This document shows, piece after piece, positions 8,560 to 53,180 of a stretch of DNA of 61,360 nucleotides. The stretch comes from Acidobacteriota bacterium (GTDB lineage Bacteria > Acidobacteriota > JAAYUB01): NCBI GenBank assembly GCA_012517875.1, contig JAAYUB010000012.1:1-61360 (forward strand). Direction: 5' to 3'. The notes under the pieces were generated by a model that was not told where the DNA came from, made no database searches, and saw nothing but the letters and a program-made list of their open reading frames with translations. Both the position numbers and the translations under genes were made by a program. Position 1 is the first letter of the stretch. Each line of letters starts with the position of its first letter.

Positions 8560-9660
8560 ATGCGCTGGACACATCTCACCCTGATGATGACCGAGCGGTG
8601 CAACTACCGCTGCGTCTACTGCTACCAGCAACGGTCGCAGCGGGATCTGGCGGATGACCGGATCCGACAAGCCTGCACGCGGCTCCTGCCGCTGGCTGCG
8701 CCGCGCTGCCGGGTCACATTTTTCGGCGGGGAGCCGACACTGGTGTTTTCGGCCGTACGGCGCGCTGTGCGGCGGATCGAAGTGTGGAACCGGGGCGGGC
8801 AACGAGACCTGACCTACGGCATCACCACCAATGGCAGCCTCCTGGGGCCCTGCAAGCTGGCATTCCTCAACGCCCACCGGTTCCGGGTGGTGCTGAGCCA
8901 TGACGGCGTGCACCAGGATCGTCACCGTGCCCCCGGCAGCACGGCTAGGCTGGCCCGGTTGCTGGAATCCCTGGGCGACTATCCGGGCATCCGGCTGGCG
9001 GTCAATTGCGTGGTTACCCGGGACACGGTCCGGGACCTGCCGGCCACGGTGCGCCTCCTGCTCGGTTTGGGCGTCCCCCGCCTGATCCTGGCTTACGACC
9101 GGCAGTCGCCGTGGCGCGACGCAGAGATCGTCGCGCTAGCGGCGGCACTGCGGGAAGTGCGCCCGTTGCTGCCGCCGCCCGACCCGGAGGATGAGGCGGC
9201 CCCCGGGGCATTTCGACAGACGGACGGCGAGCGGCGGATCTTTCGCTGCCCCGCCGGTGAGACGCGGTTGGCGCTCGCGGCCGACGGGACCGTCTGGGGC
9301 TGCCACCTCTTCGCCGATTATTTCCGCGGCCGTCAACACACCGATGAATTCACCCGCTACTGCCTCGGCGACATCCGCCGACTCGATCCGGACAGCCTGG
9401 CTGGGCGCAACGGGCTGCTTGCGCCGTACCGGCAGCTGGCCATGAACAACGGCCTGACGCCGGGCGGCTTCTGCATGTTCTGCGGCGAACTCTTTGAATG
9501 CGCCATTTGTCCGTTGGACGCGGCCCTGAGTTCGGGGCGCATTGGCCGGATCCCGGAGTGGTACTGCCGGTTTGAGCGGATCCTGCGAGGCGGGCGTGTG
9601 CCTGGACCCGGCGCACCGGACGGGCGGGAATCCGGGGCAGCTCTTCAGGCAGGCCCCTGA
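8560..9660 (+). CDS. Radical SAM protein with SPASM-like C-terminus (anSME-like)
   Basis: The 366-residue protein has the radical SAM motif C14-x3-C18-x2-C21 (TERCNYRCVYCYQ) followed by FFGGEPTL and ITTNGSLL. The C-terminal region has a SPASM-type cysteine set: FRCPAGETRL, VWGC, then FCMFCGELFECAIC and WYC, implying two auxiliary Fe-S clusters as in anaerobic sulfatase-maturing enzymes and peptide maturases. I start at the ATG at 8560 because the radical SAM barrel begins there; a GTG at 8503 in frame would add 19 low-complexity residues. Neither start has a good Shine-Dalgarno. No sulfatase lies in the window, so a peptide or protein substrate encoded nearby is likelier. Confidence 0.86.
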   Translation: MRWTHLTLMMTERCNYRCVYCYQQRSQRDLADDRIRQACTRLLPLAAPRCRVTFFGGEPTLVFSAVRRAVRRIEVWNRGGQRDLTYGITTNGSLLGPCKLAFLNAHRFRVVLSHDGVHQDRHRAPGSTARLARLLESLGDYPGIRLAVNCVVTRDTVRDLPATVRLLLGLGVPRLILAYDRQSPWRDAEIVALAAALREVRPLLPPPDPEDEAAPGAFRQTDGERRIFRCPAGETRLALAADGTVWGCHLFADYFRGRQHTDEFTRYCLGDIRRLDPDSLAGRNGLLAPYRQLAMNNGLTPGGFCMFCGELFECAICPLDAALSSGRIGRIPEWYCRFERILRGGRVPGPGAPDGRESGAALQAGP

Positions 9661-9676
9661 CCGCCGCACGGCGGGC

Positions 9677-12553
9677 CTAGGGCAAACGGCCGGCGGCGGC
9701 CTCCTTCAGTTCCGGACGATCGGGATCAGCATCCTTCCAGACGTTCAGAAACCGCCCGAAATGGCGGCGGGCGTCCTGAGCGTTCCCCTGCTGCCGGGCG
9801 CACCGGCCCAGGTTCAGGAGTGCGAGGGCGTAGCTGTCGCTGGTGTTCAGGCGGCTGGCGGCCGAATCGCGCAACCGGGTGAACGCGCTCACAGCCCGGT
9901 CCATGCGCCCGCTCGCCCGGTAGGCCTCGGCGAGCAGCGGCAGGTAGAGCGACGGGCTGCCGAAGAACCGGACGTCGGGCGTCCAGTCGAGGAGCGGGAG
10001 TGCCAGCTCCATCAAGGCGGCGGCCCGACGGGGATCGCTCCGGTGCAGGGCCAGGGCGGCCGACAGGTGGTAATAGTGGCGCCGCAGTTTCGCCATGCCG
10101 GTCGCCATCTCCAGCGCCTGCAGGCGCCGGGCGGTGCCCGCCGCCGCCTCGGCCCGTCCCTGCGCCAGGAGCGCCAAACCCTGCAGGTGGAGCGCGAGCG
10201 CGTCGTATTCAGGATCCAGCAGCGCCGGCGCCGCGCCGCCGGCGGACTCGGCGTGTCGCAGCGCGCCGGCGGCGTTGTCGCGCCGCAGCTCCAGGTAGGC
10301 GGCCAGCAGGGCCAGGTCCACGCGGATGGCATTTTCACCGAGTGTCTCCGCTTCACGCAACCCCGCGTCGAGCACACGGGCGCTCTCGGCGTAGCGGCCT
10401 CGGCCGATAAGAAACTCCGCCAGGACATAGTGGCCCATCAACCGCTGGTCAGGATCGGCATGCCGAATCCGCTCGCGGAGGATCCGCTCGGCTTCGCCGG
10501 GCCGGCCGCAGAGATTCTCCACGGCAGCCAGCCGGACGTGAAGCCAGCTCTTCTCGCGCGGCAGGTCCAGGCACTGCATCAACTCCTGGCGTGCCTGTTG
10601 GTACTGGTTTTCCAGAAGATAGGTCCATGCCAGCCGGCCCTGATAGGGCATTGGATCTTTGAACAGCGGACGGTTGCGCACGAGGAGCGTTCGGGCCGAG
10701 CCGGCCAGACCCTGGCGGATGTCGATCTCCGCCAGGTTGAGCACAGCCAGGTGATCGGTGGGGTCGGCCATCGCCGCCCCGCGGAACCACCGGCTGGCCT
10801 CCGGCCAGTCCTCGGCGTTCCGGTAGATCCCGCCCACCAGCCGCTTGATCCCGGCGTCATTGGGATAGAGGGCGTCGAAACGCCGGCCCAGGTCCGCCCG
10901 CTTGAGGTAGTTGACCTCGGTGAATTTGGAGTACAACAGCTCCAGGTTGAAGCGCTCGCGCGGCGTGAGCCGCGCCTTGTAGGCCAGGGCTTTCTGCATG
11001 TACCGGCGGTCGTTTTCCAGCTCGCGCAGGTGGCCGTAGTTGACCGACATCCGGGCGTAGGCCATGGCGAACTCGGGATCGAGGGCCGTGGCCTGCTCCA
11101 GACGAGCGTTACTCTCCGTGAACCGGCCGCTGGCGTAGAGCTTGTCGGCCTCGATGTACAGCCGCAGCGCCTCCCGCGACGAGGTGGTGACGTCCCGCAG
11201 CGCGGTGTCGATGTCGCCGGCGATGGATTCGGGCGAGAACTGGAGCGCCTCCTTGATCTTGGGCGTAAGCGCGTCGATGAGATCCTGCGGGTCCGCCGGC
11301 TCGGCCAGCTCCACCTGGGCCGAGGCGATATACTCCTGTGTGGTCGCGTCGAGAATAGCCGCCTGGAGGCGGCAGGCGCTGCCCTCCAGGTACATCACCC
11401 GGACCCGGTGAGTGGCCCCCTCGGGCTCTTTGATCACCGACAGGTAGCGGGACTGGAAAAGGTCAACCTCCAGCAGGAAAGTCAGGATCTCGCTCAGGTT
11501 GGGGGCGTCGCCCACCGGGCTGGCGATCTTGACGGGCTCGACGAAGATTTTTGGTTTGCGGGCGGCGGCGGTCTCGCCGCCGGGGTGCCGTTCGGCCGTC
11601 GGCGGGGCCGTCGGCCGCGTGATGACGAAGTAACCGGCCGCCGCGGTAAGGAGCAGGAGCAGCGTGGCCAGCTGCCAGCCCTGGCGGCGGGACAGCCGGG
11701 CCGCCGTCCGGCGGAGGGTGTCGGACGCAATGCCGGCGCGGTTGTTCCGGCAATCGATGAGCTGGTCCAGCACGCCGGCCATGGACGGCGCACGCTGCTC
11801 CGGCGGCCGGGTCAGGGCGGCGACGATGATCCGGATCAGTTCGGGGGGCGTATCGGGCCGGACGTCGGTCACCGGCGCCGGCGTCTCGTTGAGGATCGTG
11901 TGGACCGTCGCCTTGGTGTAGGGCGCCGCGAACGGATTGCGGCCGGTCAGCATCTCGTAGAGGACGACGCCGAAAGACCAGACGTCGGTGCGGGCGTCCA
12001 CCGGCAGCCCGCGGGCCTGCTCCGGTGACATGTATGCCGTCGTGCCCACGGTGCCTTCCGCCTCGCTGGTCTGCGCGTGGCCCGACAGTTTGGCCAGCCC
12101 GAAGTCGAGTATCTTGACGTCGCCGGTGCGGGTGATCATGATGTTGGCGGGCTTGATGTCCCGGTGGACCACGCCGGCCTGATGGGCGCCGACCAGTCCC
12201 TGGGCGGTCTGGATGGCGACGGAGAGGATCTCCTCGATGGACATGGCGCCCCGGGCGAGCCGGTCCTTGAGCGTCTCCCCCTCGTAATGCACCATGCAGA
12301 TGAACATCCGTCCGTCGGCGGTCTCGCCGATCTCGTGCACGCCGCATATGTTGGGGTGGTCTAGGGCCGAAGCCGCCCGGGCTTCCAGGACGAGCCGCCG
12401 GCGGGCCGCGGAGTCCCGGGTCAATTCGAGGGGCAGGAATTTCAGGGCCACGGGACGGCTCAGCAGGGTGTCTTCGGCCTTGTACACCTCGCCCATCCCA
12501 CCGGCGCCGATCCGCTCCAGGATCCGGTAATGGCCGATGGTGCGGCCGATCAT
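9677..12553 (-). CDS. Membrane Ser/Thr protein kinase with TPR sensor region
   Basis: The 958-residue Hanks-type kinase has its kinase domain at residues 8-270: glycine loop IGAGGMGEVY, Lys38 (ALKFL), catalytic HRDIKPAN (His130) and DFG (150-152), then GTTAYMSPEQA. One membrane helix follows at about 318-338 (LATLLLLLTAAAGYFVI). The remaining 600 residues start with an alpha/beta domain and continue into TPR-like helical repeats. This architecture is common in Acidobacteriota and related phyla for signal reception. The ATG at 12553 is chosen because the kinase fold begins there; a near-consensus promoter lies 82-110 bases upstream (12635-12663). The target is unknown. Confidence 0.92.
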   Translation of the reverse strand: MIGRTIGHYRILERIGAGGMGEVYKAEDTLLSRPVALKFLPLELTRDSAARRRLVLEARAASALDHPNICGVHEIGETADGRMFICMVHYEGETLKDRLARGAMSIEEILSVAIQTAQGLVGAHQAGVVHRDIKPANIMITRTGDVKILDFGLAKLSGHAQTSEAEGTVGTTAYMSPEQARGLPVDARTDVWSFGVVLYEMLTGRNPFAAPYTKATVHTILNETPAPVTDVRPDTPPELIRIIVAALTRPPEQRAPSMAGVLDQLIDCRNNRAGIASDTLRRTAARLSRRQGWQLATLLLLLTAAAGYFVITRPTAPPTAERHPGGETAAARKPKIFVEPVKIASPVGDAPNLSEILTFLLEVDLFQSRYLSVIKEPEGATHRVRVMYLEGSACRLQAAILDATTQEYIASAQVELAEPADPQDLIDALTPKIKEALQFSPESIAGDIDTALRDVTTSSREALRLYIEADKLYASGRFTESNARLEQATALDPEFAMAYARMSVNYGHLRELENDRRYMQKALAYKARLTPRERFNLELLYSKFTEVNYLKRADLGRRFDALYPNDAGIKRLVGGIYRNAEDWPEASRWFRGAAMADPTDHLAVLNLAEIDIRQGLAGSARTLLVRNRPLFKDPMPYQGRLAWTYLLENQYQQARQELMQCLDLPREKSWLHVRLAAVENLCGRPGEAERILRERIRHADPDQRLMGHYVLAEFLIGRGRYAESARVLDAGLREAETLGENAIRVDLALLAAYLELRRDNAAGALRHAESAGGAAPALLDPEYDALALHLQGLALLAQGRAEAAAGTARRLQALEMATGMAKLRRHYYHLSAALALHRSDPRRAAALMELALPLLDWTPDVRFFGSPSLYLPLLAEAYRASGRMDRAVSAFTRLRDSAASRLNTSDSYALALLNLGRCARQQGNAQDARRHFGRFLNVWKDADPDRPELKEAAAGRLP

Positions 12554-14275: not shown

Positions 14276-14806
14276 ATGCGGGAGCCGATGGAAATACTGT
14301 TCATGCGCCACCGGGACGACCTGTACACGCTGTGCCGCCGGCTCGCTGCCAACCGGGCGGATGCCGACGATCTGTTTCAGGACACCTGGGTGCAGGCCTG
14401 GCGGAACTTCCAGCGGTACGATCCCGGCCAACGGTTTCTTCCCTGGCTGGTGACGGTCTGCGTGAACCTGCACCGGGATCGGGGCCGCCGGCGCCGGCGG
14501 TGGCTGCGACGATGGGTGGAGTTCTTCTCCCGGGAGCAGATGGAGCTCGAGCTCGAGCGGGTCAAATCGGGGACGCCCGATGCGTATGAATCCCAGGCGC
14601 GGCGCGAGGAGAAGGCCATGCTCACAAAATGTCTCGACGGATTGGAGGCGCAGTTCAGAATCCCGCTGGTGCTGCACTACTACTTTGACTGGAGCCTTGA
14701 GGCGATCGCAGAGGTTCTGGATGTGCCGCCGGGCACGGTGAAGAGCCGCATGTGGACAGGCCGGCGCCGGCTGGCCGATGCCATGCAGGAGGCAGGTCAT
14801 GAATGA
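14276..14806 (+). CDS. ECF-family RNA polymerase sigma factor
   Basis: The 176-residue sigma-70 family member contains only regions 2 and 4. Region 2 is seen in RRLAANRADADDLFQDTWVQAWRNF and region 4 in LEAIAEVLDVPPGTVKSRMWTGRRRL. An upstream in-frame ATG (14213) exists, but AAGGAG nine bases before 14276 and the candidate promoter favour this start. It overlaps the next gene by eight bases, so sigma and putative anti-sigma are coupled. Likely role is a stress-responsive regulon including its own operon. Confidence 0.9.
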   Translation: MREPMEILFMRHRDDLYTLCRRLAANRADADDLFQDTWVQAWRNFQRYDPGQRFLPWLVTVCVNLHRDRGRRRRRWLRRWVEFFSREQMELELERVKSGTPDAYESQARREEKAMLTKCLDGLEAQFRIPLVLHYYFDWSLEAIAEVLDVPPGTVKSRMWTGRRRLADAMQEAGHE

Positions 14807-15125
14807 GGATCGGGTGGACGAGTTGCTTCGGGAGATCGGCCGGGAACGGATGACCCCGCCCGCTGAGCTGGTCCGGCGGATCGAACAGCGCGCCAACGCC
14901 GACCGGCTGCTGGCGGTGGTCATCGCGACCGGCCTGGTTCTGTCGGCCCTGTGGGTGGTGCCGCTGGCGTTGATCTGGTGGTTGCCGGGCTTGAGCTGGA
15001 CGATGAAAGTGGCGGGCTACGTCGGTACGTCACTGCTGAGCAGCGTGGCGATGCTCCTGCTGCTCGTCGGCCGGGAACCGGTGGGGCACCTGTTGATCGC
15101 CGCGGATGAACGGTTGAAATTTTAA
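14799..15125 (+). CDS. Putative membrane anti-sigma factor
   Basis: The 108-residue protein is encoded immediately after, and overlapping by eight bases, an ECF sigma gene. The N-terminal 40 residues are cytoplasmic and helical (DRVDELLREIGRERMTPPAELVRRIEQRA), followed by two membrane helices (about 46-68 and 74-95). There is no HxxxCxxC zinc motif, so if it is an anti-sigma it is of a non-ZAS type. GGAGG lies before the ATG. The function is inferred from position and topology. Confidence 0.65.
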   Translation: MNEDRVDELLREIGRERMTPPAELVRRIEQRANADRLLAVVIATGLVLSALWVVPLALIWWLPGLSWTMKVAGYVGTSLLSSVAMLLLLVGREPVGHLLIAADERLKF

Positions 15126-15138
15126 TGGAGGTACGACA

Positions 15139-15606
15139 ATGGCTCATCAATCTGTGTTCAAATACGTGTTCTGGGCAATCACCGGGCTAGTCGCGCTGCT
15201 GGTGAGCGCGGCCGTGTTCGTGGTGATCCTGCCCAACGTGCTGGCCGAAACGACGGACCGGACCTTCCTGTTGTTTCTGCCCCTGCTGATCGTGCCGTTC
15301 GGCATCCTGACGCTGATCGCCGTCCTGGTCTATCGGGATGCCGCCAAACGGGGGCTGGATCCATGGCTATGGGCCACCGTGGCGACCTGGGTGCCGAACC
15401 TGGTGGGCGTGATCATCTACCTGGTGGTCCGCTTCATGCACAAGAAGGTCTGCTTGGGGTGCGGCCAGGGGCTGCAGGCCGATTACAAGATCTGTCCCTA
15501 CTGCGGCCACGATCAGTCCATGACCTGTCCCAAGTGCGGGAAGCCGGTCGATCCCAACTGGTTGCTGTGCCCCTTCTGCGGCCAACCGCTGAAATCCGGT
15601 GCCTGA
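15139..15606 (+). CDS. Membrane protein with C-terminal double zinc ribbon
   Basis: The 155-residue protein has an N-terminal membrane part of three helices (about 10-30, 42-62 and 75-100). It is followed by two zinc-ribbon pairs: CLGCGQGLQADYKICPYCG and CPKCGKPVDPNWLLCPFCG. Such modules bind zinc and often mediate protein or nucleic acid contacts. TGGAGG precedes the ATG and the gene starts 13 bases after the putative anti-sigma gene, so it probably belongs to the ECF unit. Function unknown. Confidence 0.75.
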   Translation: MAHQSVFKYVFWAITGLVALLVSAAVFVVILPNVLAETTDRTFLLFLPLLIVPFGILTLIAVLVYRDAAKRGLDPWLWATVATWVPNLVGVIIYLVVRFMHKKVCLGCGQGLQADYKICPYCGHDQSMTCPKCGKPVDPNWLLCPFCGQPLKSGA

Positions 15607-34762: not shown

Positions 34763-35011
34763 GGACCTGGGATCTGGGAACTGGGTCCTGGGAACTGGGA
34801 TCTGGGAACTGGGATCCGGGAACTGGGATCTGGGAACTGGGAACTGGGAACCAGGACCTAGAACCCAGGTCCCAGGTCCGATATCCGAATTCCGATGTCC
34901 GTCAATCTGGAACGAGCCTCTAGCCTCGAGTCTCGAGCCTCGATTACGAGCACGATTACGATGACGATTACGAATTACGAGAACGAACGATCAACCATCA
35001 ACCATCAACCA
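34763..35011. repeat. Heptad-phased intergenic array A
   Basis: From 34763 to 34944 there are 26 consecutive seven-base units without a phase slip. The first 12 are GGNNCTG-type (GGACCTG, GGATCTG, GGAACTG, ...). They drift to GGTCCCA, then to TATCCGA, ATTCCGA, TGTCCGT, then to CCTCGAG and TCTCGAG. Six-base ATTACG/AGCACG units follow to about 34980, then AACCATC copies to about 35011. The last copies supply the stop codon and final residues of the synthase gene (stop 35005-35007). AT-rich words (TTGGTTA, TTGGTCA) precede the array in the gap 34561-34762. Confidence 0.85.
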
Positions 35012-36207
35012 TCGACTGACGCCATGACTCGCGCCGCCGTTTCCGGCCGGGATGTGGTGGGCGTGCGGTCGTTGCCGGCGACGCACCGGACGATGAGGGC
35101 GAGTTCCTCCAAATCCACGGGGCGACCGCCCTGGCCGGCGGCCTTGACGGCCTGAAGCACATCCCGGGCCAAGTTGTCGTCCGCGGCCACGCCGATCCGT
35201 TCCAGTCCGTGGCGCACCGCGGCCAGCCCCGACATATGCCCGAGCGCCACCTCGGGCCGACGGCCCACCAGTTCCGGCGACAGACTGGCGTAGTGGCCGT
35301 TGTGGGTCAGGGCGGCCCGGACATGACCGCCGGCGCAGTGGGTGAAGGCAAAGCGGCCGGTCACGGGGAAGTGCGCCGGCACCGGCCGCCGGGCGGCACG
35401 GCTCACCAGCCGGTAAAGGGCCGGCAGCCGGGACAGATCCCAGCGGCCGTCGCCGCCGAAATCGCCGGCCAACACCGCCAGGAGTTGACCCAGGTCCACG
35501 ATGCCGGCCCGCTCGCCCAGGCCCAGCACCGAGGCGTCGACGATTTCGGCGCCGGCGCGGACGCCGTCCAGCGCGTTGGCCAGGGCCAGGCCCCGGTCGT
35601 TGTGGCAATGAACGGCGATGAGCGGATTGGCGTCCCGCGCCGCCAGCCCGTCGCGGACGCGGCGGACCGTGTCGTGCATGTTGCGGGGCGTGCCCGGCAC
35701 CAGGCAGCCGGTGGTGTCGGCGATGCTGACGATGTCGGCACCGGCGCGGACCGCCTCGGCGGCCGCGATGACGACGTGGCGCAGGGGGCTGCGCACCGCG
35801 TCCTCGGGGGTGAACCGGATGAGCAGGCCGGGCCTCTGCGCGCGAGCCCGCGCCACGGCGGCGGTGATGCGGTCGACGGCCTGGACCAGCGTGAGCCCCT
35901 GGTCCGCCAGCCGCGCCGGGGCGACGCAGAAATAGATGCCGAGAAAATCGACGCCGCAGGCCAGCGCCGCGTCGACGTCCCCGGCCAGAGCCCGGGCATG
36001 GGCGCCGATCCGGACCGGCAGACCGGCGCCGGCCAGCAGGGCCACCGATCGGCGGATCTCGGGGGTGACCACCGGGTGGCCGGCCTCGACGATGTCCACG
36101 CCCACGGCGGCCAGGGCCTCGGCCATCGCCAGGCGCACGTGCGCGGGGAAGGCGACGCCGGGCGACTGCTCCCCCTCCCGGAGGGTGGAATCCAGGACGC
36201 GAATCAT
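35005..36207 (-). CDS. Homocitrate synthase / 2-isopropylmalate synthase family protein
   Basis: The 400-residue HMGL-like enzyme condenses acetyl-CoA with a 2-oxo acid. Its barrel motifs are STLREGEQSPGV at the N-terminus, VEAGHPVV, IADTTGCLVPGT, and VHCHNDRGLALANAL with GERAGIVDL, the family signature with metal-binding His residues. It lacks the C-terminal allosteric domain of full-length LeuA (about 500 residues), as do homocitrate synthases (NifV/AksA/LYS20 type), so substrate is uncertain. Start at 36207 has GGAGG and overlaps a leader ORF stop (ATGA). The C-terminal residues lie inside the repeat array. An ACT-like gene diverges on the other strand. Confidence 0.85.
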   Translation of the reverse strand: MIRVLDSTLREGEQSPGVAFPAHVRLAMAEALAAVGVDIVEAGHPVVTPEIRRSVALLAGAGLPVRIGAHARALAGDVDAALACGVDFLGIYFCVAPARLADQGLTLVQAVDRITAAVARARAQRPGLLIRFTPEDAVRSPLRHVVIAAAEAVRAGADIVSIADTTGCLVPGTPRNMHDTVRRVRDGLAARDANPLIAVHCHNDRGLALANALDGVRAGAEIVDASVLGLGERAGIVDLGQLLAVLAGDFGGDGRWDLSRLPALYRLVSRAARRPVPAHFPVTGRFAFTHCAGGHVRAALTHNGHYASLSPELVGRRPEVALGHMSGLAAVRHGLERIGVAADDNLARDVLQAVKAAGQGGRPVDLEELALIVRCVAGNDRTPTTSRPETAARVMASVDG

Positions 36208-37081: not shown

Positions 37082-37196
37082 GAAGGTTTTGCAAAACCTT
37101 CGAACCTTCGAACCTTCGAACCTTCGAACCTTCAAACCTTCAAACCTTCAAACCTTCAAACCTTCAAACCTTCAAACCTTCAAACCTTCGAACATC
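37082..37196. repeat. Octamer array B with a leading palindrome
   Basis: A perfect 20-base palindrome (GAAGGTTTTGCAAAACCTTC, 37082-37101) leads into four CGAACCTT units (37101-37132) and seven CAAACCTT units (37133-37188) plus one decayed unit, a clean eight-base period. It lies between convergent genes ending at 37035 and 37215. Confidence 0.9.
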
Positions 37197-44592: not shown

Positions 44593-44623
44593 CACCGCAC
44601 CTGTTCGTGCTCCAACTCGTGTT

Positions 44624-44800
44624 CGTAATCGTAATCCGTAATCGTGCTCGTAATAGTCATCGTAATCGAGACTCGAGACTCGAGACTCGAGGCTCGTTAC
44701 CGATCATCAGTCATCGGACTTCGGAAATCGGACACCGGTGGCGTCGTGTGTCAGCGCTGGCGGCGGGGAGTTGAACTTGTGAACCTGTAAACCTGCGAAC
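44624..44800. repeat. Intergenic array C, inverted relative to array A
   Basis: From 44664 to 44733 ten seven-base units run in unbroken phase. Read on the minus strand they are GTCCGAT, TTCCGAA, GTCCGAT, GACTGAT, GATCGGT, AACGAGC, CTCGAGT, CTCGAGT, CTCGAGT, CTCGATT. They lead into six-base ATTACG/AGCACG units (44624-44663). This is the same word order as array A in the opposite orientation. A GAAC-type run (GAACTTGT, GAACCTGT, AAACCTGC) lies at about 44773-44798. The rest of the gap to 44856 has no gene. Confidence 0.78.
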
Positions 44801-51255: not shown

Positions 51256-51420
51256 TCATTAGTCAGTTTTCATGTGTCATTGTATTAGCTATTGATTATG
51301 GCTCATTTTTTATAGGCTATTTGGAGTCATGATACGCAATTGCATATCCCGAACTTCGAATCCCGAATGCCGAGCCGCGAACCCGAACCGCGAGCCTCGA
51401 TTACGAACTACAATCACGAT
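51256..51420. repeat. Heptad-phased array E, AT-rich passing into GC-rich words
   Basis: From 51256 to 51381 eighteen seven-base units keep one phase: TCATTAG, TCAGTTT, TCATGTG, TCATTGT, ATTAGCT, ATTGATT, ATGGCTC, ATTTTTT, ATAGGCT, ATTTGGA, GTCATGA, TACGCAA, TTGCATA, TCCCGAA, CTTCGAA, TCCCGAA, TGCCGAG, CCGCGAA. It then passes to GCCTCGATTACGA and CACGATTACGAGCAC (to about 51430). The rest of the gap 51165-51528 has no recognised gene. Confidence 0.85.
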
Positions 51421-51528
51421 TACGAGCACACACTCTCAATGAATGGGAACGAACCCGGAATTCCGGCAACTTTTTCCCGCTCCACTCGTACACGCCAGCG
51501 TCATTATTCTGAATCATTGGAGCACAAC

Positions 51529-52907: not shown

Positions 52908-53180
52908 GAGGCGAATCAACCATCAATCGCATTGAAACCTGCAACCCTTTCTACGGCTCGATGACGATCACGAGCACGATTTCAAAATATGATTACGAAT
53001 TCCGAGCACGAACCCTCAACCCTCAACTGATCTCGAACCTGAAACCTGCGAACCCGGAACTTGCGAACCTGGAACCTGTGAACTTGTGAACCTGGAACCC
53101 GTGAACCCTCAGGTCCGTTCGAGATAAAACCAGGGCGCGGGTACGAGCCCCCAGCCTCGAGCCACAAGTCTCAAGTTGTT
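52908..53180. repeat. Intergenic array F, mixed hexad/heptad/octad words
   Basis: The gap 52840-53179 between convergent genes begins with AACCATC-type words (from about 52918) and ACG hexads (GATGACG, ATCACG, AGCACG at about 52960-52978). GAAC units follow that alternate seven and eight bases (GAACCTG, AAACCTGC, GAACCCG, GAACTTGC, GAACCTG, GAACCTGT ... 53034-53116). Finally come five heptads AGCCCCC, AGCCTCG, AGCCACA, AGTCTCA, AGTTGTT (53146-53180) whose last base is the first base of the queF stop codon. Confidence 0.78.

Follow-up and report, generated by a model that had tools for sequence, protein, structure and literature searches.

Ordered arrays of short tandem words in an Acidobacteriota genome, probable copies of a directional, modular repeat family

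The arrays of short tandem words that we designate A, C and E are probably dispersed copies of one directional, modular repeat family that is intergenic and specific to a single genus of Acidobacteriota. The window in which they were noted is a 61,360 nt stretch, contig C12 of the source MAG (G000), a genome of 4.02 Mb in 182 contigs. Judged from its letters, the family appears to be a composite of about 16 modules, each a run of degenerate 6-8 bp words, arranged as H-V-R/W-X-(K-C-T-L-G or J-F-P-Q)-A-J/M. Each genomic copy carries a subset of these modules, mostly in the composite order.

Arrays within the window

On direct reading, arrays A (plus strand) and C (minus strand) have in common the order TCCGANN, a GGGAACGAG-type linker, GAGYCTC and ACGANN (T-L-G-A), mirrored between the two (Table 1), just as the preliminary description had it when it took C for the word order of A inverted. 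On the minus strand of array C the AACGAGCC..GAGYCTC span runs 44698-44666. For array A the words had been recognised correctly, but the extent first given (34875-34980) was too short, the full array occupying about 34763-35009. Array E had been thought to repeat the order, which holds for GAGCCTC (once, 51392-51400) and the ACGANN pieces after it (51398-51406 and 51417-51425) but not for the start: its first part is CCGAANN/TCGAANN-like, and direct reading of 51347-51430 finds no exact TCCGANN tandem. The orthologous site in the related species G001 holds a clean series of three GAGCCTC, a long ACGANN run and CTCAAC. As far as can be read from it, array E is a weaker, eroded copy of the A/C order.

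Table 1. Positions of word blocks and arrays in the window
Feature	Position	Strand	Basis
Array A, K block (CTGGGANCTGGG, the C word inverted)	34767-34848	+	sequence
Array A, C block (CCCAGNN)	34864-34879	+	sequence
Array A, T block (TCCGANN)	34877-34900	+	sequence
Array A, linker end AACGAGCCTC	34911-34920	+	sequence
Array A, linker end and G block (GAACGAGCC.. GAGYCTC; also written AACGAGCC..GAGYCTC)	34911-34943	+	sequence
Array A, G block alone (GAGYCTC)	34914-34943	+	sequence
Array A, A block (ACGANN)	34941-34986	+	sequence
Array A, J block (ATCAACN)	34990-35009	+	sequence
P block (AAACCTTC x12.5), pure octamer expansion; this length absent in relatives	37094-37193	+	sequence, species comparison
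Array C, A block (ACGANN, hexamers mixed with heptamers)	44617-44668	-	sequence
Array C, G block (GAGYCTC x4; near-palindromic word)	44666-44695	-	sequence
Array C, start of linker/G transition, AACGAGCCTC, diverged form of GTTACGGGAACGAGCCTC	44689-44698	-	linker family conserved genome-wide
Array C, T block (TCCGANN x about 3), first in element orientation	44714-44732	-	sequence
F block (GAACCTGN) adjoining array C, orientation opposite to C	44774-44795	+	sequence
Array E: degenerate TCGAA/CCGAA words, one GAGCCTC, ACGANN pieces	51347-51430	+	sequence
Further array: ACGANN-like, CTCAAC (J) and GAACCTGN (F) blocks	52959-53107	+	sequence

Nothing unusual marks the genes around the arrays. Array A has a cytochrome c domain protein and a homocitrate-synthase-like protein beside it, array C a DsrE-like protein, and array E a radical SAM protein and an aldo/keto reductase. 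The J block of array A supplies the stop codon of the minus-strand homocitrate-synthase-like gene (35005-36207, overlap 35005-35009).

Within array A (34763-34880) the CTGGGANCTGGG run stands opposite the CCCAGNN run, forming a long, strong K-C hairpin (RNA z -4.96). Neither the RNA structure (z +0.4) nor the DNA fold of array C is unusual, and in the folding of these two arrays a strong fold is limited to that hairpin. An Rfam search of the window returned zero matches; on this ground, and on the z value of array C, a structured RNA family was rejected.

Word families and their conserved order

The order was examined in 40 stretches of the source genome and the window (580 kb together) and in 32 stretches of two species of the same genus, G001, which matches Acidobacteriota MAG USMO_maxbin.051 (JAKQOW), and G002, which matches Go_SlDig_bin_198 (JAGOHA). 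These 1.15 Mb yielded 1374 blocks in 16 word families. The source stretches, about 14% of that genome, were picked around pattern matches, which enriches the sample for arrays, and the word patterns and their ranking were written after viewing the data. Across the 4.02 Mb genome the three main patterns matched 441, 336 and 251 times, compared with 0, 0 and 77 for the reversed-pattern control.

The order matrix of the 1374 blocks from the three species is almost triangular and reads H-V-R/W-X-K-C-T-L-G-A-J-F-P-Q-A-M, with a second A position between Q and M. The words are ACCACAGAG..CACGAAGG (H), TCATTNN (V), TTATTGG (R), GTGAATNG (W), GGGAGAC (X), CTGGGANCTGGG (K), CCCAGNN (C), TCCGANN (T), GTTACGGGAACGAG (L), GAGYCTC (G), ACGANN (A), ATCAACN (J), GAACCTGN (F), AACNTTCN (P), AAACGGYTCGAT (Q) and CTCCTATCTC (M). 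Direct neighbours follow this order far more often than its reverse: C to T 41:0, T to G 48:1, G to A 95:16, A to J 42:0, F to P 20:1, H to V 11:0 and W to X 10:0. Over 179 clusters, 493 same-strand neighbour pairs were ordered and 114 disordered, against about 284:283 when blocks were shuffled within clusters, where the ordered share never exceeded 55%. Strand agreed in 607 neighbour pairs and differed in 215. Because the ranking had been set by viewing the data, it was also learned in the source genome alone and tested on the two related species, where 261 pairs agreed and 31 disagreed, some of the sites being orthologous and therefore non-independent.

Long ordered copies exist, such as H V W X J F P Q A M and V W C T L G A M, and they have alternative middles, K-C-T-L-G or J-F-P-Q, between a common start and a common A end. 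Junctions that are not themselves repeats recur (CCCAGGTCCGA 49 times, GGAACGAGYC 102, GTGAATCGGGAGAC 12 and GAGCACGAAC 52), and linkers outside the repeats are conserved, for example GTTACGGGAACGAGCC. The ordered pairs, the held-out species and the linkers thus support the proposal of a single directional composite with dispersed copies, and both the shuffles and the held-out test place the conservation of order far beyond chance genome-wide. In one contig of G002 (G2_L169, JAGOHA010000045.1, 2866-3446) a C-T-G-A unit with a spacer of about 55 bp is present as a tandem triplicate.

Genomic placement and unit composition

The arrays are dispersed over hundreds of intergenic places in one genome, with more than 90% of A, T and G blocks lying outside genes as called by our own codon-usage procedure rather than by published annotation. 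Convergent spacers are enriched for ACGA blocks (33/84 against 39/220 of all spacers, p=1e-4), and divergent spacers are depleted of them (8/84 against 58/220, p=1e-3). Almost half of the sampled spacers (103/220) carry a block. Whether orientation follows gene strand or replication direction had been raised at the outset; in 33 stretches of this fragmented assembly, which make for a weak test, it tracked neither coding strand (Spearman 0.12) nor GC skew (0.05). In several contigs of the source genome (e.g. C79, C162, C16 and C20) an array lies no more than a few hundred bases from the contig end, which suggests that arrays probably break assemblies. Care should be taken, as they can also be misread as separate microsatellites.

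At most core positions the units agree to 93-99%, and each word has one or two positions that are free; at the free position of ATCAACN the frequencies are C.44, T.28, A.17 and G.11. In units flanked by two intact units and aligned to the relatives, 22 of 428 core positions (5.1%) differed between species compared with 24 of 164 free positions (14.6%; p=3e-4). Coding DNA differs by 8.0% and aligned non-coding DNA by 13.2%, so that free positions match non-coding DNA and cores fall below coding DNA. On these counts the contrast would fit either purifying selection on the cores or gene conversion among copies, the latter because copies agree at their cores and differ at free positions.

Orthologous sites and rearrangements

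Comparison of word-bearing spacers across the species (30 comparisons) indicated that the place and orientation of an array are usually kept, while its blocks and their copy number vary. The AAACCTTC P block of the window measures 99 bp in the source genome, 27 bp in G001 and 19 bp in G002. The preliminary description had set the arrays against local slippage; the order beyond chance bears this out, but the statement was too strong, as slippage acts inside blocks such as this one.

In one stretch of the source genome (L024, 10768-11108) the interior reads A' G' T' F P A, as against A' P' F' T G A in G001, and it aligns better when reversed (score 151 vs 100.5 forward), the reverse match covering 281 bp at 81%. 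As an alignment result, this shows a local inversion between inverted arms of one array. Two gene-sized inversions have their ends in arrays (L012 vs G2_L115 and L007 vs G2_L177). In G002 a 4.2 kb insert splits array A and is bordered by array pieces, and in G001 the spacer of array C holds about 8.2 kb of extra DNA. About half of 19 rearrangement breakpoints carry arrays on one or both sides, an association that is suggestive only, because about half of the sampled spacers carry a block anyway.

The search for an empty site was fruitless because alternative alleles also hold words, and none of the orthologous-spacer comparisons offered a clean one; no target-site duplication was found in them. 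Terminal inverted repeats were not found either (the M block resembles inverted X by eye, and element ends vary among copies), nor was a dedicated mobilising enzyme for the arrays. Inverted repeats at the ends and duplicated target sites are marks of MITEs, a group that BOX and RUP elements resemble.

Distribution outside the genome

Searched with up to one mismatch, the G-A junction has 82 matches in the source genome, 146 in G001, 107 in G002 and 17 in G028, where the matches sit in a different repeat context. The sister genus (G003) has no such matches, and the words occur at control level in the stretches sampled from it. In a sample of about 400 members of the phylum, three have the family in bulk. 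Among 297 phylum members the W word is likewise found in bulk only in these three species, with small sets in G061 and G268. In G061, an AT-rich member of another family of Acidobacteriota, a GTGAATNG array runs into GGGAGAC via the same junction, GTGAATCGGGAGAC. In this array (C7, about 14729-15604; L293/L229) GGGAGAC is followed by runs of ATTAGGG, AGTTCNT and GATAGTG, which are duplicated nearby.

A collection-wide scan for the junctions gave mostly single matches in unrelated bacteria, several of them inside genes. Outside the genus, only the Hydrogenedentota MAG JACQVH had similar ACGANN/GAGTCTC words at several places in that scan. At its loci L130, L131, L145 and L159 the same words stand in another arrangement (GATTACGA..GAGTCTCGATTACGA). 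Array A had zero matches in plasmid and phage records, and the junction patterns occurred at 8 scattered places in viral contigs, with the composite absent. A mobile element borne by phages or plasmids was rejected on these results. One contig of the viral collection (L306, IMGVR_UViG_3300033696_000020, 9250-9800) holds a mosaic of GGGTGAAT, TTGTCCG and GTCGTTGTTCGTT that is similar in style and different in vocabulary.

Origin and alternative explanations

Under the explanation that we favour, an ancestral composite, or two with common ends, would have spread early in the ancestor of the genus. Its spread as a unit is something we infer, since neither a clean empty site nor a terminal inverted repeat, a target duplication or a dedicated enzyme came to light. 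With its two middle cassettes (K-C-T-L-G and J-F-P-Q), the family may go back to more than one ancestral element. Since that spread, copies would mostly have been inherited in place, with replication slippage probably lengthening and shortening their blocks. The arrays may have been altered further by gene conversion or homologous recombination among copies, and in this way words and order would stay alike; recombination between arrays may occasionally flip or swap the DNA between them. The arrays would accumulate where they do least harm, that is, between convergent genes and away from divergent promoters. The data require no host function.

Low core divergence could alternatively reflect selection, and an unlikely though by no means negligible explanation is that the word cores are sites for DNA- or RNA-binding proteins, in an order fixed as a selected architecture (e.g. 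for chromosome folding, supercoil relief or transcription ending). The constancy of the cores and their divergence below that of coding DNA speak for it, as do the conservation of sites and orientation between species and the enrichment in convergent and depletion in divergent spacers. However, gene conversion among copies gives an identical contrast between core and free positions, block content differs freely between orthologous sites, the sister genus does without arrays, and array C has no RNA structure to speak of (z +0.4). In one specific form of this explanation every core has a dedicated protein that reads it, the order of the cores is itself important and free positions serve as spacers. 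This form seems to us rather improbable; if it were true, the composite would amount to a 'grammar' peculiar to the genus, by which the chromosome is organised or genes are insulated. That each site arose by independent local slippage as an ordinary microsatellite, the order being coincidence or an artefact of the reader, is scarcely credible. Blocks are indeed tandem and vary in length among species, the P block being an example, but order and strand agreement lie far above the shuffles, the ranking held in the held-out species, and the non-repeat linkers are conserved. Slippage is refuted by order, strand and linkers as the whole explanation and remains the likely mechanism inside blocks.

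Two further sources of dispersed, ordered words were considered, both of them very unlikely. The arrays might be elements of the REP/REPIN type moved by the RAYT (Y1_Tnp) transposases of the genome, of which each genome in the genus has five to seven matches; arrays occur within a few hundred bases of two such genes in the source genome, and the G word is palindromic. Yet arrays are common enough to lie near any gene by chance, and of four RAYT loci scanned for words, two (L259 and L260) have none near the gene. Around the two source genes read with their flanks, the bracketing elements are inverted, GC-rich palindromes of other sequences (CCAGGGGCTGCGCCCCTGG and CAGGCGCAGCCCCGCG). These loci give RAYT mobilisation no support. 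The other proposal, to which we give as little credence, is templated synthesis, in which breaks are filled with ordered words copied from an RNA or master template by a polymerase or reverse transcriptase. A template copied with drop-outs would account for the fixed order, for copies that hold only a subset and for the degenerate positions, and the alternative alleles that were closely examined held other words instead of being empty; inheritance and recombination nevertheless explain the comparisons without a template. Dispersal of one modular family, followed by inheritance, slippage and recombination, is thus the reading that we retain.

Relation to known repeats

Known bacterial heptamer repeats are treated as single-word microsatellites, while here about 16 ordered words form a recognisable repeat family. 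With short tandem units of about 7 bp, a consensus core and an intergenic location, the arrays resemble heptamer tandem repeats of the STRR/GGGNATC type. The GGGNATC heptamers of Xanthomonas and Nostoc are intergenic, vary in length within the same gene neighbourhoods and are depleted between divergent genes (Rehm et al. 2015, PMC4692102). They and the present arrays are alike in being intergenic tandem heptamers with fixed and free positions, kept neighbourhoods, variable length and divergent depletion; they differ in having one word family instead of about 16 in a fixed directional order with linkers. Three tandem heptanucleotides have been described in Calothrix (PMC4692102). The cyanobacterial STRR heptamers are similar in that several short tandem words are abundant and intergenic. 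We know of no ordered composite of many families among STRRs. TAACTGA repeats occur in Beggiatoaceae, Cyanobacteria and Bacteroidetes as one unvarying word, for the most part a short distance 5' of start codons (MacGregor 2015, PMC4679880). These too are intergenic heptamer direct repeats of patchy distribution, but with one invariant word near starts, whereas the arrays hold many degenerate words and lie away from divergent spacers.

The hundreds of intergenic copies in one genome, and the distinct modules in consistent order and orientation, are as expected of BOX/BIME-type repeats. Pneumococcal BOX elements consist of ordered modules A, B and C in variable number, are thought to be parasitic, are nearly confined to close species and show both target duplications and inverted repeats at their ends (Croucher et al. 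2011, PMC3049150). The likeness lies in a composite interspersed repeat with ordered modules of variable number and a narrow species range; the difference is that BOX has three modules and both terminal features, whereas here there are about 16 tandem-word modules and neither feature was found. Taking these comparisons together, by analogy the family is one that works like a BOX/BIME-type composite repeat made of STRR-like heptamer runs. Within this known class it is set apart by its unusually long ordered vocabulary, and a literature search, which missed most subscription papers, found no earlier description of an ordered multi-word array. How words arise, persist and homogenise becomes testable in such a family, as does whether arrays drive inversions and gene exchange, the related species already showing inversions and inserted gene blocks with array breakpoints.

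BIME, REP and REPIN elements are dispersed, oriented, mosaic and intergenic, and are built on palindromes linked to RAYT genes. The arrays have the first four properties in common with them but not the last, as the RAYT genes read with flanks have separate palindromes of their own. These RAYT-like Y1_Tnp genes (C125:1861-2205, L037, and C80:3978-4319, L019, of the source genome) lie between inverted CCAGGGGCTGCGCCCCTGG- and CAGGCGCAGCCCCGCG-type palindromes, which are likely a separate REP family with scattered copies elsewhere.
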